Assembly: GCA_017548075.1 (NCBI GenBank)
Contig: JAFYNL010000012.1
Span: 57,125 to 121,124 of the forward strand
Direction: 5' to 3'
Length of the DNA: 64,000 bases
Origin: Bacteroidaceae bacterium
GTDB lineage: Bacteria; Bacteroidota; Bacteroidia; Bacteroidales; Bacteroidaceae
Positions 2,572 through 59,981 of this stretch are shown in pieces. The position numbers and the translations under genes were made by a program. Each line of letters opens with the position of its first letter. The stretch's first letter is position 1. The notes under the pieces are model-generated. The model made no database searches and was not told the DNA's origin. It saw only the letters and a program-made list of their open reading frames with translations.

Positions 2572-2703
2572 ACATTTCTGAACTACCCTAGTGAAGTTTG
2601 CAAAGTTAACGCGGGTTAATTGCAAAGTTAACGTGTTAAGTTGACGAAGTTAACGTGTTACGATTGCAAACATAACACGTTACGTTTGGAATTTAACCTG
2701 ATA
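2572..2703. repeat. 22-bp-unit intergenic array A
   Basis: Six units between glyA and the DUF1599 gene (both minus). Units 2638-2659, 2660-2681 and 2682-2703 are exactly 22 bp. The two before them are 24 and 20 bp, so together they keep the 44-bp spacing. Core blocks are GTTAACGTGTT, ATAACACGTT and TTTAACCTG. The outermost unit (2572-2593) is degenerate and ends in ACCCTAGTG. The array begins 65 bp after the glyA stop and overlaps the foot of the stem-loop at 2697-2756. Confidence 0.8.
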
Positions 2704-2756
2704 ACGAAATGGCAGCAAGCCTGCTTCGATGCAAACTTGCCGCCATTATTATCAGG
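2697..2756 (-). terminator. Large stem-loop after glyA
   Basis: CCTGATAA at 2697-2704 pairs with TTATCAGG at 2749-2756, and ATGGCAGCAAG at 2709-2719 pairs with CTTGCCGCCAT at 2736-2746 with one mismatch. The structure begins 12 nt after the glyA stop codon. There is no clear T-tract, so it may be a 3'-end stability structure or processing site rather than a classical terminator. Confidence 0.5.
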
Positions 2757-2768
2757 AATCCCTCCTCT

Positions 2769-4049
2769 TTAGTAAGCGAAGATGGGATAGTTTGCCATGA
2801 TGGCATTCACTTCGCTACGAACCTGAGCGATAACTGCCTCATCCTCAGGAGCGTTGAGTACGCGCTCGATGAACTCGGCTATCTTCACCATCAGGTCTTC
2901 TTTGGCTCCTCTTGTAGTGATAGCAGGAGTTCCGAGACGGATGCCAGAAGTCTGGAAAGCGCTTCGAGAATCGAACGGAACCATGTTCTTGTTGACCGTC
3001 AAATCGGCTGCAACAAGGGCCTTTTCAGCAACCTTGCCAGTCAAATCGGGGTATTTGCTCCTCAAATCAACAAGCATAGAATGGTTGTCAGTACCGCCTG
3101 AAACGATATCGAAACCTCTCTTAATCAGTTCGTTAGCGAGAGTCGCAGCATTCTTCTTCACTTGCTTTGCCCATTCCTTGAACTCTGGCTGGAGTGCTTC
3201 GCCGAAAGCAACGGCCTTAGCAGCAATAACATGCTCCAAGGGACCGCCTTGAATGCCTGGGAAGACAGCACTATTCAGGAGTGCAGACATCTTCTTAATC
3301 TCGCCTTTTGGAGTTGTTTTGCCCCAAGGATTGTCGAAGTCTTTGCCCATGAGAATAATACCTCCACGAGGACCACGAAGCGTCTTGTGAGTCGTACTTG
3401 TGACGATATGAGCGTACTTGACTGGGTTATCGAGGAGACCAGCTGCAATAAGACCTGCAGGATGAGCCATATCAATCATCAGGAGAGCCCCTACCTTATC
3501 GGCAATCTGACGCATTCTGGCATAATCCCACTCACGGCTATAAGCCGAACCACCGCCGATGATGAGCTTGGGTTTGTGCTCGATAGCGAGTTGTTCCATC
3601 TCGTCATAATCCACTCTTCCAGTCTCTTTCTTGAGGTTATAACCAACTGGCTTGTAGATGATTCCACTTGTATTGACGAGAGAACCGTGGCTGAGATGAC
3701 CTCCGTGATCAAGGTTCAAGCCCATGAAAGTGTCTCCAGGATTGAGACAAGCCAGGAAGACTGCGGCATTTGCTTGAGCTCCTGAATGTGGCTGAACATT
3801 TGCATATTCTGCTCCAAACAACTCGCAAACGCGATCAATAGCAAGTTGCTCAACCTCATCAACCACCTGACAACCGCCATAATAACGCTTGCCTGGATAG
3901 CCTTCGGCATATTTGTTGGTCAGGCAGGAACCCATTGCCGCCATAACCTGGTCGCTTACATAGTTCTCAGAGGCAATCAACTCGATGCCTTTGCGCTGTC
4001 GCTCGTCCTCCTTCGCAATGAGGGAGAAGATGATTTTGTCTTTTTCCAT
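2769..4049 (-). CDS. glyA: Serine hydroxymethyltransferase
   Basis: A 426-residue PLP enzyme that converts serine and tetrahydrofolate into glycine and 5,10-methylene-tetrahydrofolate in the cytoplasm, the main source of one-carbon units. The sequence is colinear with bacterial GlyA: N-terminal IELIASENY (21-29), [15 protein letters not shown] around 45, the HGGHLSHG loop (115-122) and the PLP lysine K222 in the [10 protein letters not shown] motif. Length is normal. It follows pyrI on the same strand after a 35-bp gap without its own promoter-like element, so it is probably cotranscribed with pyrBI. That links one-carbon and pyrimidine supply. Confidence 0.97.
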
Positions 4050-4084
4050 TGTGATTTTATTGTTCCTAATTTGTTTGTGTTATC

Positions 4085-4540
4085 CTAAACGAGTTTTACA
4101 TCCGAAAGGCTGATTTCCCTGTTGCAATAGTGGCATTGAAGGGTCCCGCGTTCCTTTCCGAGGAAGTGGAAACGGGTCTTCATCGGCTCATTATTGGTGA
4201 TGCACTTGTGATTGTCGCATTTCACGATGCCTATCAGCTCTTCCGGCATCTTCACTTCCTTCTTCTCCACCACTTCATAGTCGCGAATGATGCTGAGAGT
4301 TACGTTTGGCGCAACTACCGAAAGTTGGTTGATTTCGTCATCAGAAAAGAACTTGTCGGCAATCTTAATGATGCTTTTGTGACGCATCTTCTTGCTCTTG
4401 AGGTTGTAGCCAACTGTGACAGCCGAATGCACGTTCTCGAGATGAAGCAAACTTATCACTTCGAAGAGTTTGGCAGAAGGTATGTGGTCGATGACTGTGC
4501 CGTTCTCGAGGGCAGCCACCTGAAGTTCCTGACGTTTCAT
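4085..4540 (-). CDS. pyrI: Aspartate carbamoyltransferase regulatory chain
   Basis: The 151-residue protein is the regulatory subunit that binds nucleotide effectors and holds catalytic PyrB trimers together. The N-terminal half is the allosteric domain ([14 protein letters not shown]); the C-terminal half has the structural zinc site with Cys108, Cys113, Cys136 and Cys139. I chose ATG at 4540 because it starts the conserved [14 protein letters not shown] sequence and overlaps the pyrB stop as ATGA. The frame extends upstream to 4597, but that part is only pyrB read in another frame. The overlap suggests translational coupling with PyrB. Confidence 0.95.
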
Positions 4541-5484
4541 GAGATGATGGTTTTGTCGTTGATAATATCGTCGAGAGTGATGCCGAGAGTGTCGCAAAGG
4601 ATTGCTTCGCGAGCATAAAGTCCGTTGCGAGCCTGCTGGAAGTAGTATGCGTAAGGCGTATCGTCGATGCTATACTCTATTTCATTGACTCTGGGAAGGG
4701 GGTGAAGAATCTTCATATTGGACTTTGCTTTAGAGAGCATAGAACGGTTCAAGAGGTAACGATCCTTGACGCGTTCGTACTCATCAAGGTCGGTAAAGCG
4801 TTCCCTTTGCACGCGTGTCATATATAATATGTCTGCTCCGGCAATCGTGTCAGCATCAAAATCCTGGTGCTCAACAAAGTTGATTCCCTTCTCGCGACAG
4901 TACATCTTATAGTGCTCAGGCATAGCCAATTCGTCTGGAGCAATGAAGTGGAAGGTAGGATTGAAGTGTCTCATAGCCGTAAGGAGGCTGTGAACTGTGC
5001 GACCAAACTTAAGGTCTCCCACCAAATAGATGTTAAGGTTCTCCAGAGTTCCCTGAGTTTGATAGATGGTGTAAAGGTCGAGCATAGTTTGGCTGGGATG
5101 TTGATTGGCTCCGTCTCCTGCATTAACGATAGGGACAGGCGACACCTCACTCGCATATTGGGCTGCGCCTTCCAGATAATGTCGCATCACAATAATGTCG
5201 GCATAATTCGACACCATCATAATCGTGTCCTTCAAGGTCTCGCCTTTTGTGCCGCTAGTTACTTTAGGATCGGCAAAACCAATCACCTTCGCACCAAGTC
5301 GATTGGCCGCAGTCTCGAAACTGAGACGGGTGCGAGTGCTTGGCTCGAAGAACAAAGTGGCTACGATTCTACCCTCGAGAAGGCGTCGATTGGGATGCTT
5401 CTCAAACTCCTGAGCCATCCGGATAAGATACTCAATCTTCTCTCGCGAATGGTTGGCTATGGTTACAAGGCTTCTACTTTCCAT
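4537..5484 (-). CDS. pyrB: Aspartate carbamoyltransferase catalytic chain
   Basis: A 315-residue enzyme catalysing the first committed step of pyrimidine synthesis, condensing carbamoyl phosphate with aspartate. The carbamoyl-phosphate loop is [13 protein letters not shown] with STRTR at 49-53. The [10 protein letters not shown] segment near 125 and HPLPRVNEI near 265 are also diagnostic. Length is normal. It is the first gene of a pyrB-pyrI-glyA operon, and a -7 element sits 21 bp upstream, giving a leader of only about 13 nt. That leaves no room for a leader-peptide attenuator. Confidence 0.97.
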
Positions 5485-5504
5485 TGCTTTACATTTTTCC
5501 GTTG

Positions 5505-5512
5505 CAAAGATA
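5505..5512 (-). promoter_or_regulatory. Promoter -7 element for pyrB-pyrI-glyA
   Basis: TATCTTTG on the minus strand matches TAnnTTTG exactly. Predicted transcription start is near 5497. Confidence 0.7.
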
Positions 5513-5607
5513 CTAAAAAGATTAGAGATTAGGGATTACAGATGAGAGTTATTTTCATAATTATCACATTTTGATTTTAATTATTTTGAATTTTGAATTT
5601 AATGTCG

Positions 5608-5615
5608 TACCTTTG
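5608..5615 (+). promoter_or_regulatory. Promoter -7 element for the penicillin-binding protein gene
   Basis: TACCTTTG, with TTTTGA at 5584-5589 in the -33 position. The element lies inside a longer reading frame opening at TTG 5593, which is why the downstream ATG at 5638 is taken as the start. Confidence 0.7.
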
Positions 5616-5637
5616 TAGTCTTAAAACATCATTTCTA

Positions 5638-7977: not shown

Positions 7978-8114
7978 AGAAGACTAGCCTACCTTTTTAG
8001 CAAAAATAGTGTTGGTTTGTGTTAATAAAGTGTTAATGTCTTGACATAAATCAACAAAACTGGTATTTTACCAACATTTCTTGCAAGTTTTATTGTGGGA
8101 TAGAAAAATTGCCG

Positions 8115-8122
8115 TACCTTTG
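8115..8122 (+). promoter_or_regulatory. Promoter for the candidate small RNA
   Basis: TACCTTTG -7 box with a TTG at 8093-8095, 19 bp upstream, in the -33 position. No reading frame of note follows; a hairpin with a T-tract ends the unit at 8265. Confidence 0.65.
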
Positions 8123-8128
8123 CAGTGC

Positions 8129-8265
8129 AAAAACAAACAAGCTGTGTTTTACAGCACTCATGATTAAGTTTTTGTTTTAGGTTAAGAAGATTTGTTTGAA
8201 GGTTAATAATAGTTGTTAGTTTTAGTTTTTGGAGAAGCAATCCGTGAGGACCGCTTCTTTTTTTT
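8129..8265 (+). ncRNA. Candidate small RNA, about 137 nt, with own promoter and intrinsic terminator
   Basis: The segment between the PBP gene and array B has a consensus promoter (8115-8122) and ends in a textbook terminator: AGAAGC at 8233-8238 pairs with GCTTCT at 8253-8258, with an inner TCC/GGA pairing, followed by a run of T. A small hairpin GCTGT-loop-ACAGC occupies 8141-8155 near the predicted 5' end. There is no plausible plus-strand coding frame. The middle is AT-rich. I do not recognise the family; a trans-acting regulatory RNA or a known Bacteroidales structured RNA are both possible. Confidence 0.55.
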
Positions 8266-8297
8266 GTCCCTAATCGAACGCATCAAGGGTAACAAGG

Positions 8298-8451
8298 GTG
8301 TTGCCAAACGTCACCAGTCAAGTTTTCAAACGACGCCAGTTACGTTGGCAAAGTTAACGTGTTACGATTGCAATCATAACGTGTTATGATGACGAAGTTA
8401 ACGTGTTATGTTTGCCAACGTAACCTGTGAAGTTTGAAATCATCACCATAT
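8298..8451. repeat. 22-bp-unit intergenic array B (seven exact units)
   Basis: Seven consecutive units of exactly 22 bp: 8298-8319, 8320-8341, 8342-8363, 8364-8385, 8386-8407, 8408-8429 and 8430-8451. The three central units end in TAACGTGTT; the outer ones carry CGCCAGTT, GTAACCTGTG and ATCACC. The left flank TTTTCAAACGACGCCAGTTA and the reverse complement of the right flank TTTCAAACTTCACAGGTTA mirror each other, so the array is also one long inverted repeat. It sits in the convergent gap between the PBP and protease genes. This is the best example in the window. Confidence 0.92.
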
Positions 8452-8457
8452 AAAAGA

Positions 8458-8501
8458 AAACCCCTGCAAGGAAGTCCGTCAGAACTCACCTGCAGGGGTT
8501 T
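8458..8501. terminator. Bidirectional intrinsic terminator
   Basis: AAACCCCTGCA at 8458-8468 pairs perfectly with TGCAGGGGTTT at 8491-8501. It lies 19 bp beyond the protease stop codon, between that gene and array B, so array B is probably outside the protease transcript. Confidence 0.85.
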
Positions 8502-8520
8502 GTTGAAAGAGCTTGTTTCC

Positions 8521-12636: not shown

Positions 12637-12745
12637 AAATCGCAAAGTTAACGTGTTAAGTTGGCAAACTTCACTCGTTAAGTTTGGAAAGACTCCCTGT
12701 TAAGTTGACATACTACCCTAGGTAAGTTCACCTTCGAGGCACTTT
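12637..12745. repeat. 22-bp-unit intergenic array C
   Basis: Units 12637-12657 (21 bp), 12658-12679, 12680-12701 and 12702-12723, with a decayed unit after. The first half of each unit is well kept (AAGTTGGCAAA, AAGTTTGGAAA, AAGTTGACATA). The second half varies: GTTAACGTGTT, CTTCACTCGTT, GACTCCCTGTT, CTACCCTAGGT. The array lies downstream of the tmRNA terminator. Confidence 0.75.
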
Positions 12746-12862: not shown

Positions 12863-12869
12863 GACGAAG

Positions 12870-13270
12870 TGGAGCTGGAGGGGATTGAACCCTCGTCCAA
12901 ACAGGGACGTCCTGTGCTTTCTACACGCTTATTCCAGCCTAAGTTTTCGTGCGCCAACAAGACCTGGACCACCAATCGACGCCTTAGTTTCTAAGAGTTT
13001 CGCCTCTGGATAGAAACGTCTCCAAAAGCTATTTCCGATTTTCCTGCACCGCTTTATCAGACACTTCGGAACAACAGTTTCTGAGCGATGTCTCGTCTCA
13101 ACACCTAGTGAAGAGATAAAGCCAGTAACCTACTGTACTTCGGTTAGGCAGCGAGAGCGTAGTTGTTTGCGCCAATTAAATTGTCGGAAGTCAGAGATTA
13201 TAGAGAGTAACGACCAGCTCTCTGCGTGCTTACACAACACCTCGACCTGCTGTCAAATCCAGTCAGCCCC
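12870..13270 (-). ncRNA. ssrA: Transfer-messenger RNA (tmRNA)
   Basis: One-piece tmRNA of about 401 nt. The 5' end GGGGCTGACTGGATTTGACA forms the tRNA-like acceptor stem with the 3' end CAGCTCC plus discriminator A. The T-arm GGTTCAATCCC is intact. CCA is not encoded, because the next bases are CTT. The reading frame for the proteolysis tag lies at 13144-13173. It rescues stalled ribosomes together with SmpB. A consensus promoter lies just upstream and implies a leader of about 22 nt removed by RNase P. Confidence 0.96.
13144..13173 (-). other. tmRNA tag reading frame
   Basis: GGC to TAA encodes GANNYALAA and stop. Related Bacteroidales tags that I recall are GENNYALAA and GETNYALAA, so the second residue differs. 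The C-terminal ALAA is the signal recognised by ClpXP-type proteases. Confidence 0.85.
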
Positions 13271-25540: not shown

Positions 25541-26050
25541 AAGTAAGTCCTAACAACAGGGCCGTTACAGTTATTACAGTTACAGTTTCTTTTTCAAGGT
25601 ATAGTAATGTGTCTAATCTCCTTTCTTATACTATATAACTATTTAATAATTAATAATATATATAATAATATATAATAAAAAGAGAGATTTGATACCCTCT
25701 CAAAAAATAACTGTAACAACTGTAATTGTAACGCCTTACTAAGCAAAATATCTTCTAAGATGCAGATTTACAATAAGTTAAGACATTTGCCGTGTTTCAG
25801 AACTAGGACATAAACTTATAAAAACAGGACAAAAAGCATCAAAATACCCCCTTTTTAAGCTTCAAAAACCCACATGGAAGCCTCGTTTTGATACATTTTC
25901 GTGTACTTTTCGCATACTTTAGTCGTTCAAAAAAATTTATGTTCTGAACTCAAAATAAAGGTTTTTGTATAGAAAAGGTACTTCTAACTAAAGAAAGTAG
26001 AGGAAATTGGGGCTAACTGTCACACTTTATTGGAACAAATATATGCAGTT
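25541..26050. other. AT-rich gene-free stretch with a long inverted repeat
   Basis: No coding frame is credible here. Left arm 25564-25587 (three GTTACAG/TTACAG copies) and right arm 25709-25732 (CTGTAAC/CTGTAAT copies) are inverted, with 18 of 24 positions complementary by hand. They enclose about 120 bp that is almost pure A/T between 25620 and 25680. A smaller hairpin GAGAG...CTCTC lies at 25682-25700. Clusters like CTGTAACTGTAAC occur near plasmid- and phage-type primase genes in Bacteroidetes, so this could be a remnant, but no such gene is here. Confidence 0.5.
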
Positions 26051-26136
26051 AACATTGTAATTGTCACACGTTAAGTTGGCCCACGACCTTAAGATAAATC
26101 ATCAACAACCTTAAGGTATATCGGCAACGACCTTAG
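26051..26136. repeat. 22-bp-unit intergenic array D (variant type)
   Basis: Four units of 22, 21, 22 and 21 bp at 26051-26072, 26073-26093, 26094-26115 and 26116-26136. The first ends in CACACGTT as in the main family; the other three end in ACGACCTTAAG, ACAACCTTAAG and ACGACCTTAG instead. The array ends 10 bp before the stop codon of the minus-strand gene. Confidence 0.65.
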
Positions 26137-30672: not shown

Positions 30673-30782
30673 GCGACTGAAAACGACTGCAGTTACGATG
30701 GCAAAGTTAACGTGTTACGATTGCACTTTTAACGTGTTACGTTGGCAAACTTAACTGGGGTCGTTTGGAAACTTAACTGGAG
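30673..30782. repeat. 22-bp-unit intergenic array E (five exact units)
   Basis: Units 30673-30694, 30695-30716, 30717-30738, 30739-30760 and 30761-30782, all 22 bp. The array begins one base after the GH43 stop. Left end AAACGACTGCAGTTA mirrors the right end TAACTGGGGTCGTTTGG, with CCCCAGTTA on the complement. The middle units end in TTAACGTGTT. Confidence 0.92.
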
Positions 30783-32237: not shown

Positions 32238-33401
32238 ATGTTAACTCAAATCATTAATGCTAAAATCCTGACACCACAAGGATGGCTCAAAAACGGCAGC
32301 ATCATTCTTCGTGATAACAAGATATTGGAGGTGACGAACTGCGATTTGGCCGTCATCGGAGCTGACCTCATCGACGCGAAAGGCATGTATGTTGTGCCCG
32401 GATTCATCGATATGCATGTTCACGGAGGCGGCGGGAGAGACTTCCAAGAAGGCACGCCCGAAGCCTTCAAAACAGCTGTGGAAGCTCACGTAAAACACGG
32501 CACAACCAGTATCTTCCCTACCCTTTCCAGTAGTACTGTGCCCATGATTGAAAAGGCAGTACAGACTTGCTCCAAACTCATGCAGGAAAAGGATTCCCCC
32601 ATCCTCGGCCTTCACCTCGAAGGACACTACCTCAACCCCACAAAGGCTGGGGCACAACAACCCGGATGGATAAAGAACCCCGACCCCAACGAATACATTC
32701 CCATCGTAGAAAAGTCGGATTGTCTGACTCGTTGGGATGCCGCCCCTGAACTTCCGGGTGCCTTACAGTTCGGACGTTATTGCGCAGAAAAAGGAATTCT
32801 GCCAAGTATTGCCCACACCAATGCTGAGTATGATGATGTGAAAGCCGCATTCGAAGCAGGTTTTACCCACGTTACCCACTTCTACAACGCAATGCCTGGC
32901 TTCCACAACAAGATGGGTTACAAGTACGAAGGAACAGTCGAAAGCGTCTATCTCATTGACGATATGACCATAGAATGTATTGCTGACGGCATCCATGTTC
33001 CGCCCACAATTCTTCGTATGGCCTATAAGATTAAGGGTGTTGAGCGCATGGCTGTCATCACGGACGCTTTGGCTGTGGCTGCCGCTCCTCCCGATGCAAA
33101 GGCTTTTGACGAACGAGTTATTGTCGAAGACGGAGTTGCGAAACTCTCCGACCGTAGTGCTTTGGCAGGTTCTATCGCAACAACCGACCGTCTGGTACGC
33201 ACCCTTGTTCAGCAAGCGGAAGTTCCTCTTGAGGATGCAGTCCGCATGGCAAGCGAAACGCCGGCACACATCATGGGTGTCTTCGGCAGGAAAGGCGCCT
33301 TGGCTCGCGGCAAAGATGCCGATGTGCTCATCCTCGACGAGAAGCTCAAGGTACGTTGCGTTTGGCAGATGGGCAAGATTATCGAGAATACATTATTCTA
33401 A
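32238..33401 (+). CDS. nagA: N-acetylglucosamine-6-phosphate deacetylase
   Basis: A 387-residue amidohydrolase. The metal-site GFIDMHVHGGGG carries His60 and His62; the later LEGHYLNP, the TN.EY and HLYN-like THFYNAMP segments and ITDALAVAA (catalytic Asp) follow the family order. It removes the acetyl group from GlcNAc-6-P, feeding amino-sugar catabolism and wall recycling. It follows glmM by 37 bp and is probably cotranscribed. Confidence 0.95.
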   Translation: MLTQIINAKILTPQGWLKNGSIILRDNKILEVTNCDLAVIGADLIDAKGMYVVPGFIDMHVHGGGGRDFQEGTPEAFKTAVEAHVKHGTTSIFPTLSSSTVPMIEKAVQTCSKLMQEKDSPILGLHLEGHYLNPTKAGAQQPGWIKNPDPNEYIPIVEKSDCLTRWDAAPELPGALQFGRYCAEKGILPSIAHTNAEYDDVKAAFEAGFTHVTHFYNAMPGFHNKMGYKYEGTVESVYLIDDMTIECIADGIHVPPTILRMAYKIKGVERMAVITDALAVAAAPPDAKAFDERVIVEDGVAKLSDRSALAGSIATTDRLVRTLVQQAEVPLEDAVRMASETPAHIMGVFGRKGALARGKDADVLILDEKLKVRCVWQMGKIIENTLF

Positions 33402-33424
33402 ATCGTCGTCCCTTAAACACTTGT

Positions 33425-36400
33425 ATGAACCCTATCCGACGCCTTTGGCAGAAAGCCATGAACAATGAAGCGCTTCGAGAAAAGCTGCGCGTCATTATCT
33501 TCCAAAGTGATACTCCACTTGGAAAGGCTTTCGATGTCGCCTTGCTTTGGTGCATAGTAGCGAGCATCCTGCTGGTCGTGATAGAAAGCATGCAAGCCCT
33601 CCCGCCTACGGCTAAGCAGGTCTTCACGATATTGGAATACGTTTTTACGTTCTTCTTCACACTTGAATACCTCTGCCGACTCTATTGTTCGGACAAGCCA
33701 AAAGACTATGCCCTCAGTTTCTTCGGCATTATCGACCTGCTGAGTACGCTGCCTCTCTACATCGGATGGATATTCGGTCCTGTACGTTATCTCATGGTGG
33801 TTCGTACGTTCCGACTCATTAGAGTCTTCCGCGTATTTAAGCTCTTCAGTTTCCTGCAAGAGGGAGATTTGCTCATGCGGTCTTTGATAATCAGCGCTCC
33901 GAAGATAGGCGTCTTCTTCCTATTCATGGTTATCATGGTCATTAGCATGGGCACACTCATGTACATGATTGAAGGCGACCTTCCGAACACGCCGTTTACC
34001 GACATTCCAACAAGCATCTATTGGGCAGTTGTGACGATGACCACCGTCGGTTACGGCGATATTGCTCCGGCAACATTCCTCGGAAGAGTGCTTTCCGCAA
34101 TTGTGATGCTGATGGGTTATACCATAATGGCTGTACCAACGGGTATCGTCAGCGCACAAATGGTACATGACCACAAAACGAAACGCAAGGAAAAGTTCTG
34201 TGCCGAATGCGGTTCTCCCTTACCCTTCGACGCACATTTCTGTCCCTTCTGTGGCATGAAGCAAGACGCCATTAAAAACTTGAAAAGCGTTAAGGAGCCA
34301 CTAACTTTGATACTGATTCTGCTTTTGCAAAGCTTTACTCTAAGTAGTGTAGCAAAAGACCAACTGCTTTCCGGCACAGTAATTGGCACAACAGAGAGTG
34401 TCGATTATTCAACTGGACAAGCAAGCACAACAGTAAATACCGCAGCCAACGCCTTTGATGGCAACCTCTCCACCTTCTTTGCTTCTTACGAACGAAGCAA
34501 GACTTGGGTTGGACTCGACTTAGGGGAGAAACATGTTATCACTCGAGTCGGATGGTCGCCCAGAGAAGGTAGTGTCGGACCGAAACGTGTCATCTTGGGT
34601 CTTTTCGAAGGCGCTAACGACCCGAATTTCATGGATGGCGTTCCGTTATACATTATCGACCAAGAAGGAACGATTGGCGAGATGAGTTATGCCGATGTGA
34701 ATGTCTCGCGAGGCTTCCGTTATGTTCGCTATATTGGCCCTGCCGAGGCAAGATGCAACATAGCGGAAGTTGCTTTCTATGGGCATGCTGGCGAAGGCGA
34801 CGACACACATTTCTATCAGTTGACCAACCTGCCGACTCTCTCCTTTCACACAGTCGATAACGTTGATCCATACGACAAAGTGCACGAACTCGTCTCGTCC
34901 ATTACCATCATTTATGATAATGAAACAAAGATTCAGGAAGAGACTGGCACAACCCGATACCGCGGAAATGGTTCGCTGACGAACGCAAAGAAGCCTTATC
35001 GAATCAAGCTCGACACCCAGAGGCGTATGTTCAAGAACTCGGATATGCGTTCTCCTGCGAAAGCCAAGAAGTGGACACTCATCAACAACCACGATGATAA
35101 AACGCTGATGCGCAACCTCGTGGCTTTTGAGATTGCACGCCGAATGGGCTTCGACTACGTGCCTTGGAGCAAACCGGTCGACGTCATCGTCAATGGTGAA
35201 TACAAGGGTTGTTACCAACTGAGCGACCAGATAACTGTGGACAGAAATCGTGTGGACATCACAGAGATGCAGCCAACTGACATCGAAGGCGAAGAAGTTA
35301 CGGGCGGCTACCTGTTAGAACTGGATGGTTACGCAAGCCAAGAAATATCGTGGTTCACTAGCGCAGCAGGCAATCCCATTACCATCAAGAGCCCCGACGA
35401 CAACGATATCACGCCCGAACAGGCTGCCTACATTCGTCGCGAGTTCAACCTGATGGAAGCTAAAATACTGGCATCCAACTTCGACGACCCTGATTTGGGA
35501 TTTCGTTCGAAACTCGACGAGAAGAGCCTCTTGCAGTATTTCCTGACCGAAGAACTGACTGGCAATCCCGATGCATTCTGGAGTTGCTACCTGACGAAAG
35601 AGCGAGAAGAGGACTTCTTCCGTATGGGACCTGTTTGGGACTTTGATAATGCTTTCGACAACGACTACCGAAACTACCCAACGAACGGTCTTGGAGACTT
35701 CATTTCGCTTGCCCGAGGCGGTGCTGGTAACTCGCGTGCTTTGCTCAAAAGGATGTTTTCCGATCAGGTTCTTCGCGACTCAATGGCTGTGATGTGGAAC
35801 ACCGCTCGAGCCGAAAAAGGCATCAACGCAGAAAGCATCAACGCATATATTGACTCGACGGCACAAGAGTTGATGCAATCGCAACGACTCAATTTCATAC
35901 GATGGCCCATATTGGACAAACTTATACAAATCAATCATCGAGCCGGAGGTTCCTATGAAGTCGAGGTGGGTTGGCTGAAGGAATACATCGAAGAACGAAT
36001 TCCTTGGCTCGACGACGCTATTAATCCCGACAGTATCGTTGAGGAGCCAGAGCTCGTAGAGATTGCTTCGGCGGCCGATTTGGCCAACTTCGCCAGTCGC
36101 GTAAACTCAGGTAAGGCCTCTCTTTGTGCTGTGCTGACAGCCGACATCGACTTCTCCTCGTATCCGGATGTAATGATTGGCACCAACAGTTACTACAAAG
36201 GAGAGTTCGACGGAGCAGGGCATTCAATCAAGCTGAACCAAAATCGTACGGATTATTATGCAGGTTTGTTCTGCAACCTATCGGGTTATGTGCACGACCT
36301 CATCACAAAGGGGACTATCACGACTTCTAACAAGTATGCCGGAGGCATTGCGGGACAGACTGAGGAAGCCACGATTGAGCGGTGTCAGAGCCGAGTGAAA

Positions 36401-37969
36401 ATCATCAGTTCGGTTAATGGCGACGGCACTCATGGCGGCATTGTCGGAGTTTCGAACAATGGTACAATTGTTCGTGATTGCCTTATTAGCGGGGATATGC
36501 AAGGCAGTCAGACAAATTGTTGTGGTGGCGTTTCGGGTTGGGCAAGTGGCTCTACCAACATCTCAAACTGTCTTATCACAAGCAACTTCTCTGTCGATAC
36601 CTACGGAAGCGACCTGCTGGCTCGCAACAGCAACAACGTCACATCGACGAACAACTACTTCCAAAGCGACTGGAACGCCTCGAATGGTTGTGGCGATGTT
36701 ACTTCTTTGACGGAGAATCAAGTATCGTATGGCGAAGCTTGTTTCCTGCTTGAAGGCAAACAACCAGGCAGTACTTCTTGGCGACAAACACTTGGAAGAG
36801 ATGTAACACCCGTTCCTGTGTCCGACTCTTCCCACAACATTGTTTATTGTTTCTCCCGCCTACATTGTGACGGAACGCCTTATTCGACTATTGACGGCTA
36901 TACCAACGACATCTCACTTAACGGGCAAGATGAACACAAATTCCTCGATGGAATCTGTCAGTTCTGCGGCTATGTCGACACAGAAAGCATTCCCAAGGAC
37001 GAGCGAGGCTACTATCTCATAGCTTCGCCAGGAATGCTTAATCAGTTCGCACAAATGGTGGAGGAAGGCAAGACGGACATTTGCGGAGTGCTGACCAACG
37101 ATATTGATTTCTCCGCTTACCCTTCCACGATGATTGGAAACAGTAAGACTTATAGCGGAACCTTCGACGGAGCTGGGCACACAATCACTATCGCAACAGT
37201 TCGAAATGCTGATTATGCCGGCCTTTTCGGGCATTTATCGGGAACAGTACAGGACCTTATAGTTCGCGGTTCGATTACTACAAACAGGAAGTTTGCCGGG
37301 CTTGTTGCCAATTTGAAGGGTGGAACTTTGCTCCGATGCCAGAGTTATATCGACATCTACGGCACTATTAATGGGGACGGAACTCATGGCGGATTGGCTG
37401 GTCTCTTTAGTGATGCAGGAAGTATCGGAATGCTGCAAGACTGCATCTTTGCTGGTTCCATAAACGGCGAGAACCTCAGTCATTGCGGAGGACTCGTTGG
37501 TTGGGCAACTGCAACAGGAATTATCTCGAATTGCTTGATGACAGGAAAGATGAATATCAGTTCCGAAGGAGGCGACATTATCTGTCGTAACAATGGAAGA
37601 GCCATACTCTTCGACACCTATTATTTCAGCGATTGGAATGCTGGTGTACCCGTCGATGCCATACAAACAGACAGTCAAAGTATGACTAGCGGCTTGCTTT
37701 GTCAGCAACTCAATGCAGGCAGAACTGACGACAGACAAGCCTGGTATCAGACTCTCGACGAGGACCTCTTCCCCATTCCAGACAAAAGACATTTGCCTGT
37801 TTGGTATTTCGACGGCTCCTACATCAACGAAAATCCGGATGTTGTCCGAAACATTCCTGCTCATAATCCACAGAACAAGATCGGTATCTACGACCTGAGT
37901 GGACGCCGACTCAATAGTGAACCAACTCGCGGAATATACATAAAGAATGGAAGGAAAATGCTGCGATAA
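33425..37969 (+). CDS. Voltage-gated-type K+ channel fused to a CotH/GLUG surface protein
   Basis: This continuous 1514-residue frame joins two normally separate proteins. Residues 1-250 are a six-segment potassium channel with an arginine-bearing S4 (VVRTFRLIRVFRVFK) and the selectivity filter TTVGYGD near 208. A cytoplasmic zinc ribbon follows (CAEC...CPFC, about 258-276). Then KNLKSVKEP and a hydrophobic stretch (LTLILILLLQSF) look like a former signal peptide, followed by a discoidin-like domain, a CotH domain (YRGNGS, KKPYRIKL, MGPVWDFDNAF) and two GLUG-type repeat blocks. The end is a sorting-like tail (GRRLNSEPTRGIYIKNGRK). Topology is consistent: the channel C-terminus is cytoplasmic and the seventh segment would export the rest. 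ATG 34256 could start a separate CotH protein. Confidence 0.8.
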   Translation: MNPIRRLWQKAMNNEALREKLRVIIFQSDTPLGKAFDVALLWCIVASILLVVIESMQALPPTAKQVFTILEYVFTFFFTLEYLCRLYCSDKPKDYALSFFGIIDLLSTLPLYIGWIFGPVRYLMVVRTFRLIRVFRVFKLFSFLQEGDLLMRSLIISAPKIGVFFLFMVIMVISMGTLMYMIEGDLPNTPFTDIPTSIYWAVVTMTTVGYGDIAPATFLGRVLSAIVMLMGYTIMAVPTGIVSAQMVHDHKTKRKEKFCAECGSPLPFDAHFCPFCGMKQDAIKNLKSVKEPLTLILILLLQSFTLSSVAKDQLLSGTVIGTTESVDYSTGQASTTVNTAANAFDGNLSTFFASYERSKTWVGLDLGEKHVITRVGWSPREGSVGPKRVILGLFEGANDPNFMDGVPLYIIDQEGTIGEMSYADVNVSRGFRYVRYIGPAEARCNIAEVAFYGHAGEGDDTHFYQLTNLPTLSFHTVDNVDPYDKVHELVSSITIIYDNETKIQEETGTTRYRGNGSLTNAKKPYRIKLDTQRRMFKNSDMRSPAKAKKWTLINNHDDKTLMRNLVAFEIARRMGFDYVPWSKPVDVIVNGEYKGCYQLSDQITVDRNRVDITEMQPTDIEGEEVTGGYLLELDGYASQEISWFTSAAGNPITIKSPDDNDITPEQAAYIRREFNLMEAKILASNFDDPDLGFRSKLDEKSLLQYFLTEELTGNPDAFWSCYLTKEREEDFFRMGPVWDFDNAFDNDYRNYPTNGLGDFISLARGGAGNSRALLKRMFSDQVLRDSMAVMWNTARAEKGINAESINAYIDSTAQELMQSQRLNFIRWPILDKLIQINHRAGGSYEVEVGWLKEYIEERIPWLDDAINPDSIVEEPELVEIASAADLANFASRVNSGKASLCAVLTADIDFSSYPDVMIGTNSYYKGEFDGAGHSIKLNQNRTDYYAGLFCNLSGYVHDLITKGTITTSNKYAGGIAGQTEEATIERCQSRVKIISSVNGDGTHGGIVGVSNNGTIVRDCLISGDMQGSQTNCCGGVSGWASGSTNISNCLITSNFSVDTYGSDLLARNSNNVTSTNNYFQSDWNASNGCGDVTSLTENQVSYGEACFLLEGKQPGSTSWRQTLGRDVTPVPVSDSSHNIVYCFSRLHCDGTPYSTIDGYTNDISLNGQDEHKFLDGICQFCGYVDTESIPKDERGYYLIASPGMLNQFAQMVEEGKTDICGVLTNDIDFSAYPSTMIGNSKTYSGTFDGAGHTITIATVRNADYAGLFGHLSGTVQDLIVRGSITTNRKFAGLVANLKGGTLLRCQSYIDIYGTINGDGTHGGLAGLFSDAGSIGMLQDCIFAGSINGENLSHCGGLVGWATATGIISNCLMTGKMNISSEGGDIICRNNGRAILFDTYYFSDWNAGVPVDAIQTDSQSMTSGLLCQQLNAGRTDDRQAWYQTLDEDLFPIPDKRHLPVWYFDGSYINENPDVVRNIPAHNPQNKIGIYDLSGRRLNSEPTRGIYIKNGRKMLR
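34256..37969 (+). other. CotH/GLUG part of the fusion with possible internal start
   Basis: ATG 34256 starts MKQDAIKNLKSVKEP, a basic n-region followed by a hydrophobic core and an SSVA cleavage-like site. Read alone it is an ordinary Bacteroidales secreted CotH protein of about 1237 residues. It lacks any promoter-like box, so if made separately it depends on internal initiation or on signal-peptidase cleavage of the fusion. Confidence 0.55.
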
Positions 37970-38072
37970 AAAACATAACAGGTTAAGTTGGCAAACATAA
38001 CACGTTAAAAAGGCAAACGTAACACGTTAACTTTGCCAACGTAACTGCAGTCGTTTTCAAACGTAACTAGAG
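37963..38072. repeat. 22-bp-unit intergenic array F (fills the whole gap)
   Basis: Five exact units at 37963-37984, 37985-38006, 38007-38028, 38029-38050 and 38051-38072. The first overlaps the last codons and stop of the channel-CotH gene, and the last ends 4 bp before the aminopeptidase ATG. The units mostly use TAACACGTT, the reversed core, then GTAACTGCAG and GTAACTAGAG. There is no room for an independent promoter outside the array. Confidence 0.9.
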
Positions 38073-41460: not shown

Positions 41461-41592
41461 AAGCCTGCAAACTAGGCTAGGTACATCGGCAAACAACTGC
41501 AGTTAAGTTGGCAAAGTTAACGTGTTATGATTGCAAACGTAACAGGTTACGATTGCAATCATAACTGCAGTTGTTTTCAATAAGAGCGAGAG
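41461..41592. repeat. 22-bp-unit intergenic array G (six exact units)
   Basis: Units start at 41461, 41483, 41505, 41527, 41549 and 41571, each 22 bp. Ends carry AACAACTGCAGTTA and the mirror TAACTGCAGTTGTTTT. The first unit uses the alternative block CTAGGCTAGG. It fills nearly the whole convergent gap between the GH43 lipoprotein gene and ugd. Confidence 0.9.
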
Positions 41593-41598: not shown

Positions 41599-42942
41599 TC
41601 AATCGCAACCAAAAATGTCGCGAGTATAGACTTTGTCTTTCACATCATCAAGGCACTTTTCATAGCGATTTGCCACAATTGCCTGCGATTGTTTCTTGAA
41701 GGTTTCTAGGTCGTTCACCACTCGAGAGCCAAAGAAACTCTCGCCATCTTGAAGTGTAGGCTCGTAGACAATCACCTCAGCACCCTTGGCTTTGATGCGT
41801 TTCATGATGCCTTGAATGGCCGATTGACGAAAGTTGTCGCTTCCAGACTTCATGGTCAAACGATAAACGCCAATAATGCAATGTTGCTCGCTCTCACTAT
41901 TCCATTGTGCATTCTCGCTGTAATAGCCGGCCATTCGAAGAACCGCATCCGCAATATAATCCTTCCTGGTTCGATTGCTTTCCACAATTGCAGTCATCAT
42001 TTGTTGCGGAACATCCTGATAATTAGCGAGTAACTGCTTGGTATCTTTCGGCAGACAATAACCTCCGTAACCAAACGAAGGATTGTTGTAATGCGTCCCA
42101 ATTCGGGGATCAAGCCCGACTCCTCGAATGATTGCCTTCGGATTGAGACCTTTCACCTCAGCATAAGTGTCGAGTTCATTAAAGTAGCTCACTCGAAGAG
42201 CTAAGTATGTGTTAGCGAACAACTTAACTGCCTCAGCCTCCTTCATGCCCATAAAGAGAGTGTCGATATTCTCCTTCTCGGCTCCTTCTTGCAGGAGTTT
42301 GGCAAAAGTTTCCGCAAACTTCTTGGCTTCAGGATTGCCGATAGCCGTAATTGCGGCATTTTCCTCAGTAAAATTACTATCGCTAATCTCTATGATTTTA
42401 GGATAGCCGACAATAATGCGAGAAGGGTAAAGGTTGTCGTACAACGCTTTGCTCTCGCGCAAAAACTCAGGCGAGAAGAGCAAGTTGAACTTCTTCCCCT
42501 TCAACTCAGGCTTGTAGAGGAACTTCAAGGCATACTTCGCATAAAGACTTCTGCAATAGCCTACAGGAATCGTACTCTTGATAACCATTACGGCATCAGG
42601 ATTAACGCTAATTACAAGATTGATGACATCTTCGATATGATGTGTGTCGAAGAAGTTCTTGACGGGATCGTAATTGGTTGGAGCAGCTATGATTACGAAG
42701 TCCGCATCCTTGTAAGCCGAAGCCCCATCGAGTGTGGCAGTAAGTCGCAAAGGCTTTTCAGCCAAGTACTTTTCGATGTATTCGTCTTGAATAGGAGACT
42801 GCCTTCTGTTTATCTTCTCCACTTTATCTGGGACGACATCTACAGCCGTAACCTCATGATTCTGACTGAGCAAAGTCGCAATAGAAAGGCCAACATAACC
42901 CGTTCCTGCAACTGCGATTTTCAATTCACTGAAGTCTCTCAT
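41599..42942 (-). CDS. ugd: UDP-glucose 6-dehydrogenase
   Basis: The 447-residue enzyme oxidises UDP-glucose to UDP-glucuronate for capsule or surface polysaccharide. It has the N-terminal NAD-binding [15 protein letters not shown], the middle domain with LSPEFLRES and the catalytic cysteine region [15 protein letters not shown], and the C-terminal UDP-binding domain. A related nucleotide-sugar dehydrogenase cannot be excluded, but the Cys and Lys motifs fit Ugd. It is monocistronic and divergent from holB, and may feed the exopolysaccharide operon. Confidence 0.93.
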
Positions 42943-49958: not shown

Positions 49959-49973
49959 CTTATATAACGAGAT

Positions 49974-50105
49974 ACGTTGGAAAACTAAGCGTGTTAAGTT
50001 GGGCATCATAACACGTTACGATTGCAAACGTAACACGTTAAGTTTGCGATTTAACCACGTTAAGTTTGCCAATTAGGCTAGCCTAGTTGGCGAACTAGGC
50101 TAGCT
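49974..50105. repeat. 22-bp-unit intergenic array H (six exact units)
   Basis: Units start at 49974, 49996, 50018, 50040, 50062 and 50084. The first four end in GCGTGTT, AACACGTT, AACACGTT and CCACGTT; the last two carry the palindromic block CTAGGCTAGC. The array begins 11 bp after the stop of the glutaminase-like gene and precedes its terminator. Confidence 0.9.
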
Positions 50106-50115
50106 GTGTTTTTTC

Positions 50116-53489: not shown

Positions 53490-53517
53490 TGGCAAGAAAT
53501 CAAAACTAATTCGACTT

Positions 53518-54759: not shown

Positions 54760-54763
54760 CTCG

Positions 54764-54895
54764 TTGAAAATCAACAGACCTAGTGAGGTCGTAAAACAAC
54801 CCCAGTTACGTTGCCAAAGTTAACGTGTTAAGATTGCAAAGTTAACGTGTTACGTTTGCCAACGTAACTGCAGTTGTTTGGAAACGTAACTGCAG
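54764..54895. repeat. 22-bp-unit intergenic array I
   Basis: Five exact units from 54786 (54786-54807, 54808-54829, 54830-54851, 54852-54873, 54874-54895) plus a decayed one at 54764. The array is an inverted repeat centred near 54836/54837 (TTGCAA): over 44 positions per arm I count 34 complementary pairs by hand. Most of the mismatches are GT/AC exchanges inside the cores. It begins 4 bp after the GTPase stop. Confidence 0.9.
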
Positions 54896-54950
54896 TCAAT
54901 TCTCGACAGAATGAAACAAACTATATTACTCACCTCATATCTAACGATTC

Positions 54951-57900: not shown

Positions 57901-58517
57901 AAGGTGCCGAGATTTATGCTTATCAAGGAGCTATTCCTGATGGCGACAAAGCTAATTATGCATTCAACAAAGTCGAGCAAGCAGAGCCTGGACAGCCTGT
58001 TCTTCTGGTTGTAGGCGACTATGAAAACTTCGAAGCCGACGATGAGGAAGAAGATCCGGAAGTCATCAACATCACTCCTTTAGGCAGTTCCTTCGCCTTA
58101 GATCCCCTCGCAACTGGAGGCGTTCACGGAACCTTTGCTTACGAATGGGTTGATAAGGGAACCGTAGTTGTTGGCGGTGGTAGGATTGGAAGCTACGGCA
58201 ACTCTCTCGTCCTTGCTGATGGTGTGGAGAATACCGACTGCACTCGCGATATTGCGGCAAACACTGGCTATATCGTCTTCGGCGAGAACATCCTCAAGAA
58301 CGCCAATGTTGAAGACTTCGATTTGGTCATCAACGCAGACAAACCAGTTATTAAGGGTGATGTGAACAACGACTTTGCAGTCACGATTGCCGATGGTGTG
58401 GCAGTCCTGAATGCAATGGCTGGCGAGGAAGTTGCTGGCGTAGCCGATGTGAATGGGGACGGCGAAGTGACGATTGCAGACTTCGTTGCGGTTCTGAACA
58501 TCATGGCTGAGCAATAA
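54951..58517 (+). CDS. Large secreted protein with a C-terminal dockerin-like domain
   Basis: The 1188-residue protein has a signal peptide ending near AFAE. It is mostly beta-rich modules: a ricin- or lipocalin-like N-terminal region (VIQGNGQANQ, TGRYICIEG), a discoidin-like domain around 500-660 (SDDANTFWHSNWH) and helical linkers. The last 60 residues are a type I dockerin: two repeats GDVNNDFAVTIADGVAVLN and ADVNGDGEVTIADFVAVLN with the Asp/Asn calcium ligands. No catalytic site is evident. Dockerins bind cohesins on scaffolds; no cohesin is seen in this window. Confidence 0.83.
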   Translation: MKRNFTSIIALILACMIAVPAFAEQLSLTGIGSVVTAPEPNTLYVIQGNGQANQISWLYDNNGTLAADVTSIFDEGPESMKYVWTFEKSGESYAAKNYVTGRYICIEGTSNGGKVKMQESPFFFTIDVKGDEVGFKNASGQYIDMSYSGEKPVTWSGGVAGSRRMSIYIATVEEVADITAALARLNAIYGTYEDYLDGVATIDRGSEIGQYNCSDEVYNTFITNLQLAFDILSEEVPDVTLEMINEVIENIETSYAAIMASLVELTIDDGNYRIISALEWTSSTRIDTGEVDEDGQPIYQEITIHPTKAMYATLEGKAMWADLDSTDCRYLWKMTNNAETGLIQMMNIATDEIVATCSQSTQATLTSDSNTELMFKFIQRREDGKIVVTMKPSSGGDYAFLHCNGHSGGSGNAGNIVGWISGAGASQWVLEPVTDEEVAELVEAYAPIKNHELLVSMFQDLIAETEAAIAQAQDDSYITDREALITSTNQFSSIWTDPNEGSFNNVLSDDANTFWHSNWHNGNVSNHTHYFNVSLTAPVEGDIQCFMRRRGNADNDHITALGVYGSNQESALGSETEEGWTELGSYNLSENASPGKTVYSNVLTLSEGYQYLRFYIDGTTTGRGYGHFATFQLYRLTVDGNTQWSQMGDAATAISEALATAKAVDPDEMADMTEYNELKAALDAFKALLVDPSALAAALEANKDIVNLVAIGDNPGFWSADSEVGALASIIQEASAYLKSGAYTQAQVDAYVEAITSGASNIMAAANPVVEGKWYALKFDSEENYDAHKWSKTPAVNTTLGDLYNNYAAPAYIDGEGDDATLVGFESLADVSIGQAVRFIDDETIQQMDQVAFRFVAQGDSAFVIQHKSGLYLGGASRSTNLTLGLTPALFNVQAVGYGKVIIEARNLKGQGYYTEPVYLHAQNAGHSLVTWNNDVVSSNSALFIEPIADSDFDEGAEVQESASMKVKPNSFIFKCYPAGFSVEGAEIYAYQGAIPDGDKANYAFNKVEQAEPGQPVLLVVGDYENFEADDEEEDPEVINITPLGSSFALDPLATGGVHGTFAYEWVDKGTVVVGGGRIGSYGNSLVLADGVENTDCTRDIAANTGYIVFGENILKNANVEDFDLVINADKPVIKGDVNNDFAVTIADGVAVLNAMAGEEVAGVADVNGDGEVTIADFVAVLNIMAEQ

Positions 58518-58533
58518 ACAACTCACATCTCAC

Positions 58534-58573
58534 AGCAAAGCCCCCTACGGTTACTTCCGCAAGGGGCTTTGCT
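58534..58573. terminator. Bidirectional terminator between convergent genes
   Basis: AGCAAAGCCCC (58534-58544) pairs with GGGGCTTTGCT (58563-58573), all 11 pairs complementary. It serves both the dockerin gene and the minus-strand lipid gene cluster. Confidence 0.88.
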
Positions 58574-58590
58574 TATTTAGCTCTTTTCGT

Positions 58591-58953
58591 TTACTTGAAC
58601 GTTGCTGAGAGCTTGGTGTAAAGGGTTTCGCCACCAGCCACTTGAGCATGAACCTTGAGGCTTCCGTCCTCTTGTTCCTCGATTAAAGGGAAGGAGACGC
58701 TCAGTTCGGGAACTTCTTCAGGCGAGATGATGGCGAGATATTTCACGTTCTTTGCTTTTTGGAGGCTGAGTTCGCGACCAACAAGAACTTGCAACAATTC
58801 CTGAATCATCTGCACAATACAAACTCCAGGAGTAATTGGATGGCCTGGGAAATGTGCCTTGTAGATGGGCCAATCCTTGTTGATGCGAATCTGGAAGGCA
58901 GGTTGCTCGTCTTCCTTCGCAAGGATAGTGAAGAGATTATCTTGTAGAATCAT
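58591..58953 (-). CDS. Hotdog-fold 3-hydroxyacyl-ACP dehydratase-like protein (FabZ/FabA type)
   Basis: A 120-residue protein with the family motif HFPGHPITPGVCIVQM, where the His is the catalytic base. I take ATG 58953; the frame extends to TTG 58965, which overlaps the preceding stop. The protein is shorter than FabZ (about 140-150). It is the last gene of a four-gene operon for acyl-chain building. Confidence 0.82.
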   Translation of the reverse strand: MILQDNLFTILAKEDEQPAFQIRINKDWPIYKAHFPGHPITPGVCIVQMIQELLQVLVGRELSLQKAKNVKYLAIISPEEVPELSVSFPLIEEQEDGSLKVHAQVAGGETLYTKLSATFK

Positions 58954-58957
58954 TTTG

Positions 58958-59386
58958 TTATTCAATTAGTCCCCATTTCTCTTTCCAGCGGAGATAGAAC
59001 TCCGGATTCTCGAGGATGAGTTCATAGTTCTGGTCGGTAAAGGCCTGAATGGTGCGAGCGGAAGTCAGCAAAGTATCGTCTTTTGTATCATGAATCTCGT
59101 AATCGAAGACGATTTTTGCTGCTGGAGTGAACTTATAGGCGATGTCTATGCGAGGTTTCGTCGTGTAGAAGATGGGCCGATGATAGCGTATATCCATATC
59201 CACGATTGGTGCAAAGACATTATTCTTCAGGTAATCATCGTAGCAAAGCCCAAAGTGATGGCCCCAAGCCTCTCGCGCATCTTCCAAATAGAGCGGGTAA
59301 GCTCCGTGCCAGACAACGCCCATGATATCGACTTCGCTGAATCGAACCTCAAACTCTCGCGAGAAGCGCAACTCCTTTTCCTGCAT
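58958..59386 (-). CDS. Hotdog thioesterase (4-hydroxybenzoyl-CoA thioesterase family)
   Basis: A 142-residue acyl-CoA/ACP thioesterase-like protein. The motif VRFSEVDIMGVVWHGAYPLYLEDARE carries the catalytic Asp of this family (split here as VRFSEVD and WHGAYPLYLEDARE). It would release or edit acyl chains made by the neighbouring dehydratases. It lies 3 bp after the ApeP-like gene and 4 bp before the last hotdog gene. Confidence 0.88.
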   Translation of the reverse strand: MQEKELRFSREFEVRFSEVDIMGVVWHGAYPLYLEDAREAWGHHFGLCYDDYLKNNVFAPIVDMDIRYHRPIFYTTKPRIDIAYKFTPAAKIVFDYEIHDTKDDTLLTSARTIQAFTDQNYELILENPEFYLRWKEKWGLIE

Positions 59387-59389
59387 TCC

Positions 59390-59827
59390 TTAGACCTCCT
59401 CACTCTGTTCGCCTTGAGCAATCTTCAGGCGAGTTGTGGCAACGACCTCAGTTCCTACTCGAACCTCAGCCGTAACAAGCGTAACATCAAAGATTTCCTG
59501 AACCACCACGATTGTAGTCTCGATGGTTTCTCCTTCTCGAGGCAAACGATTGATACTCAAGTCTTTCACCTCGCCGATAAAGCCGAGACGAACGCCTGTC
59601 TTCAGTACATATTTATTATAGTAGCCGAGTCGAGCGGCACAAGTCTGAGCTATGTGCTCGATAAGGCCTGCCGAAGCGAACTCGCCATTCTCGCAGAAGA
59701 CGTTTTCAGGACGAATTGTGAGGTCGCAACTGCTTTGAGTCTCGCTATAATCCGTCAAGTGGTCCACCATTACGAAAGGTGGCCTTTGCGGCAGAAGTTC
59801 AAGTATCGGTATCTCTCTAAAAATCAT
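59390..59827 (-). CDS. ApeP-type 3-hydroxyacyl dehydratase
   Basis: The 145-residue hotdog protein starts at ATG 59827 (MIFREIPILELLPQRPPF). The frame continues upstream through array J to 59881, but that part codes only repeat sequence. LLPQRPPFVMVDH and GLIEHIAQTCAA, with catalytic His, match the ApeP dehydratases of aryl-polyene clusters rather than FabZ. It therefore probably acts on an acyl-carrier-bound chain in a specialised lipid or pigment path. The rest of an aryl-polyene cluster is not in the window. Confidence 0.8.
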   Translation of the reverse strand: MIFREIPILELLPQRPPFVMVDHLTDYSETQSSCDLTIRPENVFCENGEFASAGLIEHIAQTCAARLGYYNKYVLKTGVRLGFIGEVKDLSINRLPREGETIETTIVVVQEIFDVTLVTAEVRVGTEVVATTRLKIAQGEQSEEV

Positions 59828-59849
59828 AACTTTATCAAGTTCGCTAGGA

Positions 59850-59981
59850 GCGTTCCAAAACTTCCCCAGTGTCGTTGGCAAACTTAACGAGTTAAGTTGA
59901 CGATTTTAACGTGTTACGATTGCAAACTTAACGTGTTACGTTTCGATTTTAACTGAGGGTCGTTTGGAAACCCTAAGTGTA
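59850..59981. repeat. 22-bp-unit intergenic array J (six exact units)
   Basis: Units start at 59850, 59872, 59894, 59916, 59938 and 59960. The last overlaps the final codons and stop of fabG, and the first ends 23 bp upstream of the next gene's ATG. Ends mirror each other: CAAAACTTCCCCAGTG on the left, GAGGGTCGTTTGG on the right. Middle units end in TTAACGTGTT. Confidence 0.9.

Follow-up and report, generated by a model that had tools for sequence, protein, structure and literature searches.

Evenly spaced gene-end arrays of 22-bp units in a Bacteroidales lineage: kept positions, rewritten sequence and a possible chromosomal ruler

Introduction

DNA uptake sequence dialects are species-specific repeated words near gene ends, each of them a single short word. 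The REP and BIME repeats are described, in the available parts of the sources, as extragenic, palindromic and often located between convergent genes (PMC1525189), as often exceeding 100 copies per genome (PMC2817692), and as carrying, in most REPs, the word GTAG or CGTC as a tag on one palindrome end (PMC3733652). According to the accessible portion of PMC4596501, the BrickBuilt element of P. gingivalis and P. gulae is a 23-nt minisatellite carried in a miniature inverted-repeat transposable element (MITE), present in 19 copies of 1 to 22.8 units, with a leader and a tail that have IS5-like terminal repeats. The motif of gyrase is ~130 bp long, symmetric and 10.75-bp periodic, and BIME-2 elements act as strong sites for this enzyme (PMC6379681, available part). 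The present report deals with a 64,000-nucleotide stretch of a Bacteroidaceae genome (contig JAFYNL010000012.1; this whole stretch is hereafter called the window), in which ten intergenic sites hold tandem arrays of 22-bp units, and with the repeat family to which these arrays belong. The arrays lie mostly at the 3′ ends of genes, they are evenly spaced, and in one relative they have kept their positions while the sequence of the unit has been replaced.

Among the systems mentioned above, the REP/BIME repeats of Enterobacteriaceae and Pseudomonas are closest in distribution, being, like the arrays, high-copy imperfect palindromes in extragenic space. The arrays differ from them in that the units are contiguous at a fixed 22-bp period, no RAYT was found, the spacing is even with an exclusion zone around each array, and positions are kept while the unit sequence changes. 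To my knowledge, the REP/BIME family does not include contiguous arrays that have a fixed period and keep their positions. Neither tag word, GTAG or CGTC, is present on either strand of the consensus unit, as read from the consensus only. With BrickBuilt, the arrays share the order Bacteroidales, the intergenic location and the dispersed tandem organization in short units, but their period is 22 instead of 23, 98 arrays were counted in 832 kb, and each contains 2–6 strict units, as opposed to 1 to 22.8. Neither the unit length nor the very variable copy number of BrickBuilt, as given in the available part of PMC4596501, was found here, and identity with it was dropped. Strong gyrase sites are similar in their size of ~130 bp, their symmetry, their period near 11 bp and their location at gene ends, whereas GC phasing is not common to all the array families. 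DNA uptake sequences differ in that the present repeats form 22-bp arrays, several families of which coexist in one relative (G051, see below).

The author of an earlier note on this DNA, made from its letters alone, was aware of no named family like these repeats. Searches limited to Rfam, for the window, and to the open-access literature brought up none either: at the gathering cut-off, the sole Rfam match in the window is a tmRNA, with none at the arrays, and no description of such a repeat family was found in the open-access papers. Nor do the arrays look like CRISPRs, the units being contiguous and free of unique spacers when the TRF rows and the arrays are read. No bacterial repeat family is known to me in which even spacing and an exclusion zone go together with a conserved position and a sequence rewritten between species.

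Copy number, position and unit structure

A profile built from 313 units located outside the window gives 68 matches of at least 10 bits within it, and 67 of these fall inside the ten intergenic sites that the earlier note had listed, all of which do contain tandem 22-bp units; the single match elsewhere, at 42883, may be due to chance. By contrast, each of 20 dinucleotide-sampled controls yields only 0–5 matches with this profile and the reversed window yields 0, so that the density lies far above that expected from shuffled sequence. Counting the better strand at each site yields 39 units of at least 10 bits, and the note's figure of about 53 units must include degenerate edge units.

The family extends over the whole genome (G000), a 2.66-Mb draft that is 88% complete. 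A 17-mer, GCAAASTTAACGTGTTA, matched with up to 2 mismatches, occurs 553 times genome-wide, while the reversed pattern does not occur at all. In 832 kb of G000 (ten contigs, window included), there are 98 arrays of at least 2 units, a density that is probably biased upward because the stretches were drawn from contigs with pattern matches (those of G051 were chosen likewise). One-unit arrays were left out of the array counts, and arrays less than 150 bp apart were merged (200 bp in the G051 spacing analysis). The number of strict units varies little, being 2, 3, 4, 5 and 6 in 5, 38, 36, 17 and 2 arrays, respectively. A scan of 459 kb that makes no use of the consensus detected 54 regions of period 22, compared with 0–3 at each other period from 13 to 35.

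The position of the arrays relative to genes was determined using gene calls from a codon-usage script of my own, which do not include RNA genes. In G000, when only gaps no shorter than 100 bp are considered, arrays occupy 31 of 38 convergent gaps, 29 of 80 and 16 of 50 tandem gaps on the + and − strands, respectively, and 17 of 61 divergent gaps. When the flanking genes are in tandem, 41 of 46 arrays lie nearer the stop codon of the upstream gene than the start of the following one, the median distances being 43.5 bp (over all 46) and 151 bp. The only window array that is counted in a divergent gap (12637–12745) actually lies past the 3′ end of a tmRNA gene, which is absent from the gene calls.

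The consensus unit, ACGTTTGCAAACTTAACGTGTT, is nearly its own reverse complement, a property absent from the earlier note. Read along the consensus, two pseudo-palindromes, TTNGCNAA and TAAC-RY-GTTA, alternate at a centre-to-centre distance of 11 bp. In 108 of 123 exact cores, the RY dinucleotide in the middle is GT or AC, and it is usually uniform inside one array (30 of the 34 arrays with at least two exact cores). The 12 bp between cores are assembled from a limited set of recurring halves, which combine unevenly. Mutual information within units is strongest between neighbouring positions, with a weak pairing signal at positions 15–22, and many arrays have one best dyad.

Even spacing and local exclusion

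The 88 distances between neighbouring arrays in G000 have a mean of 7.75 kb, a coefficient of variation (CV) of 0.41 and a minimum of 3.38 kb. When arrays are instead assigned to random gaps, in the same number and the same orientation classes, the CV is 0.85 ± 0.09, and none of 1000 draws was as even as the genome; the fifth percentile of distances is 3.6 kb, in contrast to 1.2 kb under this null model. The deficit of short distances is also seen gap by gap. Only 1 of 98 eligible gaps lying less than 3.3 kb from another array is occupied, as opposed to 92 of 131 gaps lying farther away, a comparison that is partly circular in that a close pair counts on both sides. No occupied convergent gap is closer than 3.38 kb to another array, and of the seven convergent gaps that are free of arrays, four are within 2.5 kb of one. 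The even spacing comes with a local exclusion zone.

Even spacing was also found in two relatives, G024, which is of the same genus, and G051. In G024, the CV is 0.49 with a minimum of 1.3 kb, and the CV of gap midpoints is 0.64, compared with 0.875 ± 0.094 for the null model (0 of 500 draws as even). The 50 merged arrays of G051 give a CV of 0.48 and a minimum of 2.2 kb, with 0.49 for gap midpoints versus 0.81 ± 0.11 (0 of 1000 draws). Spacing is more even when counted in bases than in genes, with CVs of 0.41 versus 0.52 in G000 and 0.49 versus 0.60 in G024.

Conserved positions and replaced words

Conservation of position was examined in 36 orthologous gaps, each measuring 100 bp or more in G000 and lying between two genes that stand side by side in the analysed part of G051 as well. 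Both genomes have an array in 12 of these gaps, G000 only in 1, G051 only in 1 and neither in 22 (Fisher p = 1.3e-7); an additional check of orientation leaves 11, 1, 1 and 22. In the one gap that scores for G000 only, the G051 partner holds two CCGC cores, which fall under the detection threshold. The positions are shared, whereas the words mostly are not: of the 12 common places, 2 hold the exact TAAC core in G051, 6 hold the CCGC core and the remaining 4 hold neither of them. Alignment of the G000 and G051 arrays shows that the 22-bp register is kept and the core replaced, with flanks partly conserved, and in one orthologous array an identical change is present in every unit. The gap behind SHMT holds arrays of differing words in G051, G012, G026, G069 and G034 (SHMT 95–97% identical), and no evident array in G070 (SHMT 97%), G035 and G005 (95%). 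As a side observation, palindromic arrays with a period of 23 instead of 22 bp are found 3′ of SHMT in G016 (L202) and G037 (L210).

The unit of G024 is unrelated to that of G000. It is GC-rich, about GTCGCAACGTGGTGCGACAGGC, and the corresponding 16-mer matches 514 times in G024 and never in G000. The 86 arrays found in 480 kb of G024 nevertheless have the same build, with 2–4 strict units; 84 of them are in gaps, and they occupy 20 of 26 convergent and 18 of 46 divergent gaps. When 386 kb of G051 were scanned without a consensus, 53 regions of period 22 were detected, and each of the other periods from 15 to 31 gave 3 or fewer; 14 of 21 convergent and 6 of 27 divergent gaps are occupied, and a few longer arrays reach ~210 bp. 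At two of three G051 places (C18:32384–32586, C2:10058–10250 and C2:73062–73164), a TACATGTA-type 22-bp array adjoins a TTAAC/TCGAC-type array, and at the third it looks nested in sequence of the array kind.

The claim of the earlier note that the 22-bp period is kept can be extended far beyond the window. A survey of stretches from 33 genomes of the genus (G000 included) and of 43 named loci detected 257 regions of period 22, many of them from few families, and 81 regions at all other periods from 15 to 30 together, 0–16 at each. At least one period-22 region is present in 16 of the 33 genomes. The consensus is self-complementary (p < 0.05 versus shuffles) in 99 of the 257 period-22 regions and in 7 of the 81 others, with the proviso that the regions are not independent, many being of one family; outside the three deeply sampled species the proportion is 16 of 47, and some units are clearly not self-complementary. 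The consensus of a G015 array of about seven units (L172:12728–12885), for instance, is not, which indicates that symmetry is common but not required. The SHMT of the present organism is up to 89% identical to that of named records, from which the organism is probably a Bacteroidales member of the rumen or gut, close to Prevotella and Paraprevotella. For named relatives, the scan covered loci around a single gene, 43 of them nearer and 37 farther, a sample that carries little information on density. Ten period-22 regions were found in the nearer loci, mostly in Prevotella, Prevotellaceae and Paraprevotella records, and none in the 37 loci of farther families (Alistipes, Muribaculaceae, Paludibacteraceae and others). 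The arrays of these named relatives are only candidates for membership of the same system.

What the arrays may be

The indifference to strand, the symmetry, the narrow size, the even spacing and the conserved position of the arrays fit a site that acts at the DNA level. I therefore tentatively favour the view that the arrays are architectural or insulator sites, putatively bound by a protein. In G000, each array is a module of 2–6 well-kept pseudo-palindromic 22-bp units, close to two helical turns apiece, which would allow a protein acting as a dimer or oligomer to align along a single DNA face, a binding mode that the earlier note had also considered. Such modules, placed mostly just past stop codons, above all between convergent genes, and on average once per 5–8 kb in the three species measured, might split the chromosome into stretches of similar size and contain torsion, read-through or looping within each of them. 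The turnover of sequence could then come from a drift in the specificity of the putative protein combined with homogenization of the units inside arrays.

The location of the arrays at 3′ ends would also suit transcribed hairpins, serving as bidirectional terminators or as stabilizers of 3′ untranslated regions, and seven of the ten window arrays do fold at z-scores of −2.8 to −6.4, a stability reached by 0 or 1 of 200 shuffles (z-scores are −1.2 to −1.8 for the remaining three). These window folds and the best dyads made the hypothesis attractive. However, arm complementarity within an array (19.4) does not exceed that obtained when arms are swapped between arrays (20.4; p = 0.11; 54 of 59 arrays, those with at least 3 units). 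The complementarity is therefore a property of the consensus and is not specific to the arms of one array. Core orientation is also unbiased with respect to transcription, 11 arrays against 16 (p = 0.44; 53 of 59 arrays, those with two called neighbours and at least 2 units). The hairpin hypothesis was dropped on these two tests, and I regard it as very unlikely; the RNA fold that the earlier note had offered as one cause of the regular spacing finds no support in them. Gene ends that carry an array have terminator-like sites no less often (53 of 107, 21 of the 53 overlapping an array) than other gene ends do (35 of 99), as judged with a crude finder that also scores in 24 of 172 shuffled gaps. 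The finder gave no sign that arrays replace terminators, and in the window a terminator-looking hairpin can be seen by eye between the SHMT stop codon and the array. A REP-like or MITE-like mobile element, spread genome-wide and spaced out because insertion near an existing copy is excluded or because neighbouring repeats are selected against, would account for the high copy number, the intergenic 3′-end location, the imperfect palindromes and the species-specific sequence. Y1_Tnp matches, indicative of a RAYT, are present in 8 of 21 genomes of the genus, among them the array carriers G012, G026, G034 and G069, but G000 (at 88% completeness) has none, and the other 13 of the 21, to which the array-rich G024, G051 and G053 belong, have none either; a REP/RAYT system was dropped on this ground. 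The conservation of G000/G051 positions, with orthologous arrays that keep their register between partly conserved flanks, also makes mobility decidedly unlikely. One array, searched in plasmid and phage collections, gave no match; the one IMG/VR match (L274) is lone, without neighbouring units.

A more specific proposal at the DNA level is that the arrays are strong sites for gyrase or another topoisomerase at gene ends, where positive supercoils gather, as proposed for E. coli BIME-2. The location between convergent genes, the symmetry, a size near that of the 130-bp gyrase motif and a period about twice its 10.75-bp GC period (PMC6379681, available part) all argue for it, as does the 11-bp GC power, which is raised in G000 (0.133 versus 0.095, a value reached by 0 of 300 permutations) and in four G015 arrays (0.193; 8 of 300). 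In G024, by contrast, the 11-bp GC signal lies below all 300 permutations (0.019 versus 0.096), and in 16 CCGC-type arrays of G051 it is not raised (0.069 versus 0.094). GC phasing is therefore not the common property of the arrays and was not upheld as a general feature; I consider gyrase rather unlikely, and the lack of common phasing favours a dedicated or nucleoid-associated protein over it. That the arrays are neutral minisatellites, functionless and with a 22-bp period set by the copying mechanism, is the view to which the shared changes of units within an array, as if homogenized, and the non-palindromic arrays lend themselves; the narrow unit number in two species, the even spacing, the exclusion zone and the conserved positions make it most improbable.

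If the arrays are DNA-level architectural sites, they may make up a chromosomal ruler, with which this gut and rumen lineage of Bacteroidales would mark off segments of several kilobases along the chromosome, by means of 22-bp-periodic arrays at the ends of genes; the position and the build of the sites would be inherited while the word is rewritten genome-wide as species diverge, presumably tracking a fast-evolving DNA-binding protein. This extended proposal is possible but doubtful. Several observations weigh against the site hypothesis itself. At least three unit families, of the TTAAC, CCGC and TACATGTA types as sorted by eye, stand side by side in G051, and the arrays of G015 differ from each other in sequence, some of them not being palindromic, which is awkward for one sequence-specific protein. 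The narrow range of unit numbers does not hold throughout, as G015, G026 and G051 contain arrays with about 7 to 9 units. Arrays may not be universal in the genus, given that 17 of the 33 genomes have no period-22 region in samples of 4–20 kb. G000 and G051 have places in common and hence are not independent tests of spacing; G024, the better replicate, allows arrays 1.3 kb apart. For G000 and G024, the conservation of positions is no more than suggestive, with reciprocal best hits giving 6 gaps with an array in both, 6 and 17 in a single genome and 59 in neither (p = 0.07), and the strictly comparable gaps, only five, giving 0, 1, 1 and 3. Were the arrays to organize chromosome domains, they would offer precise sites whose deletion could be used to study what sets the domains of supercoiling and transcription in Bacteroidota, and they would exemplify a DNA code that coevolves with its reader across the whole genome.

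The arrays of the window

The ten arrays, with the units retained by the profile and their neighbourhood, are as follows.

Array 1, 2572..2703: + strand units of 25.8–26.8 bits at 2594, 2616, 2638 and 2660 (profile); gap flanked by a DUF1599 gene and by SHMT, both on the − strand (Pfam).
Array 2, 8298..8451: 6 in-register − strand units from 8312 to 8422; between convergent genes; the longest window array.
Array 3, 12637..12745: 3 units, − strand; past the 3′ end of the tmRNA gene.
Array 4, 26043..26136: two family units, one at 26043 (11.1 bits) and one at 26065 (24.4 bits), and after them a 22-bp repeat of another sequence.
Array 5, 30673..30782: units at 30695, 30717, 30739 and 30761; between two + strand genes, starting right after the upstream stop codon (open reading frame end 30671).
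Array 6, 37963..38072: units at 37985, 38007, 38029 and 38051; between two + strand genes, overlapping the upstream stop codon (open reading frame end 37969).
Array 7, 41461..41592: units at 41505, 41527 and 41549; between convergent genes.
Array 8, 49966..50105: 5 units, − strand, from 49966 to 50054; between two − strand genes.
Array 9, 54764..54895: units at 54808, 54830, 54852 and 54874; between two + strand genes, starting 4 bp past the upstream stop codon (open reading frame end 54759).
Array 10, 59850..59981: units at 59872, 59894 and 59916; at the 3′ end of a short-chain dehydrogenase gene (59973–60770, − strand).

In array 1, a 24-bp and a 20-bp unit had been thought to compensate each other. 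This pair was not recovered, the four + strand units being exactly 22 bp apart, although TRF does place indels (10%) in this array. Bases 8302–8451 of array 2 have a folding z-score of −5.78. The tmRNA gene beside array 3 was located by Rfam at 12867–13270 on the − strand. Array 4, first delimited as 26051–26136, is the weakest site of the window, with only two units of the family; it is directly continued, at 26086–26135, by a second, different 22-bp repeat (ACCTTAAGATAAATCAGCAACA, TRF period 22), as if two words stood in one array. The edges of the window arrays often finish in CTGCAG- or CCTAG-like units. The gap orthologous to that of array 5 also has an array in G051. Upstream of array 6, one 1537-aa frame (33356–37969) matches both the Ion_trans (ion-channel) and the CotH kinase Pfam models, possibly as a fusion.

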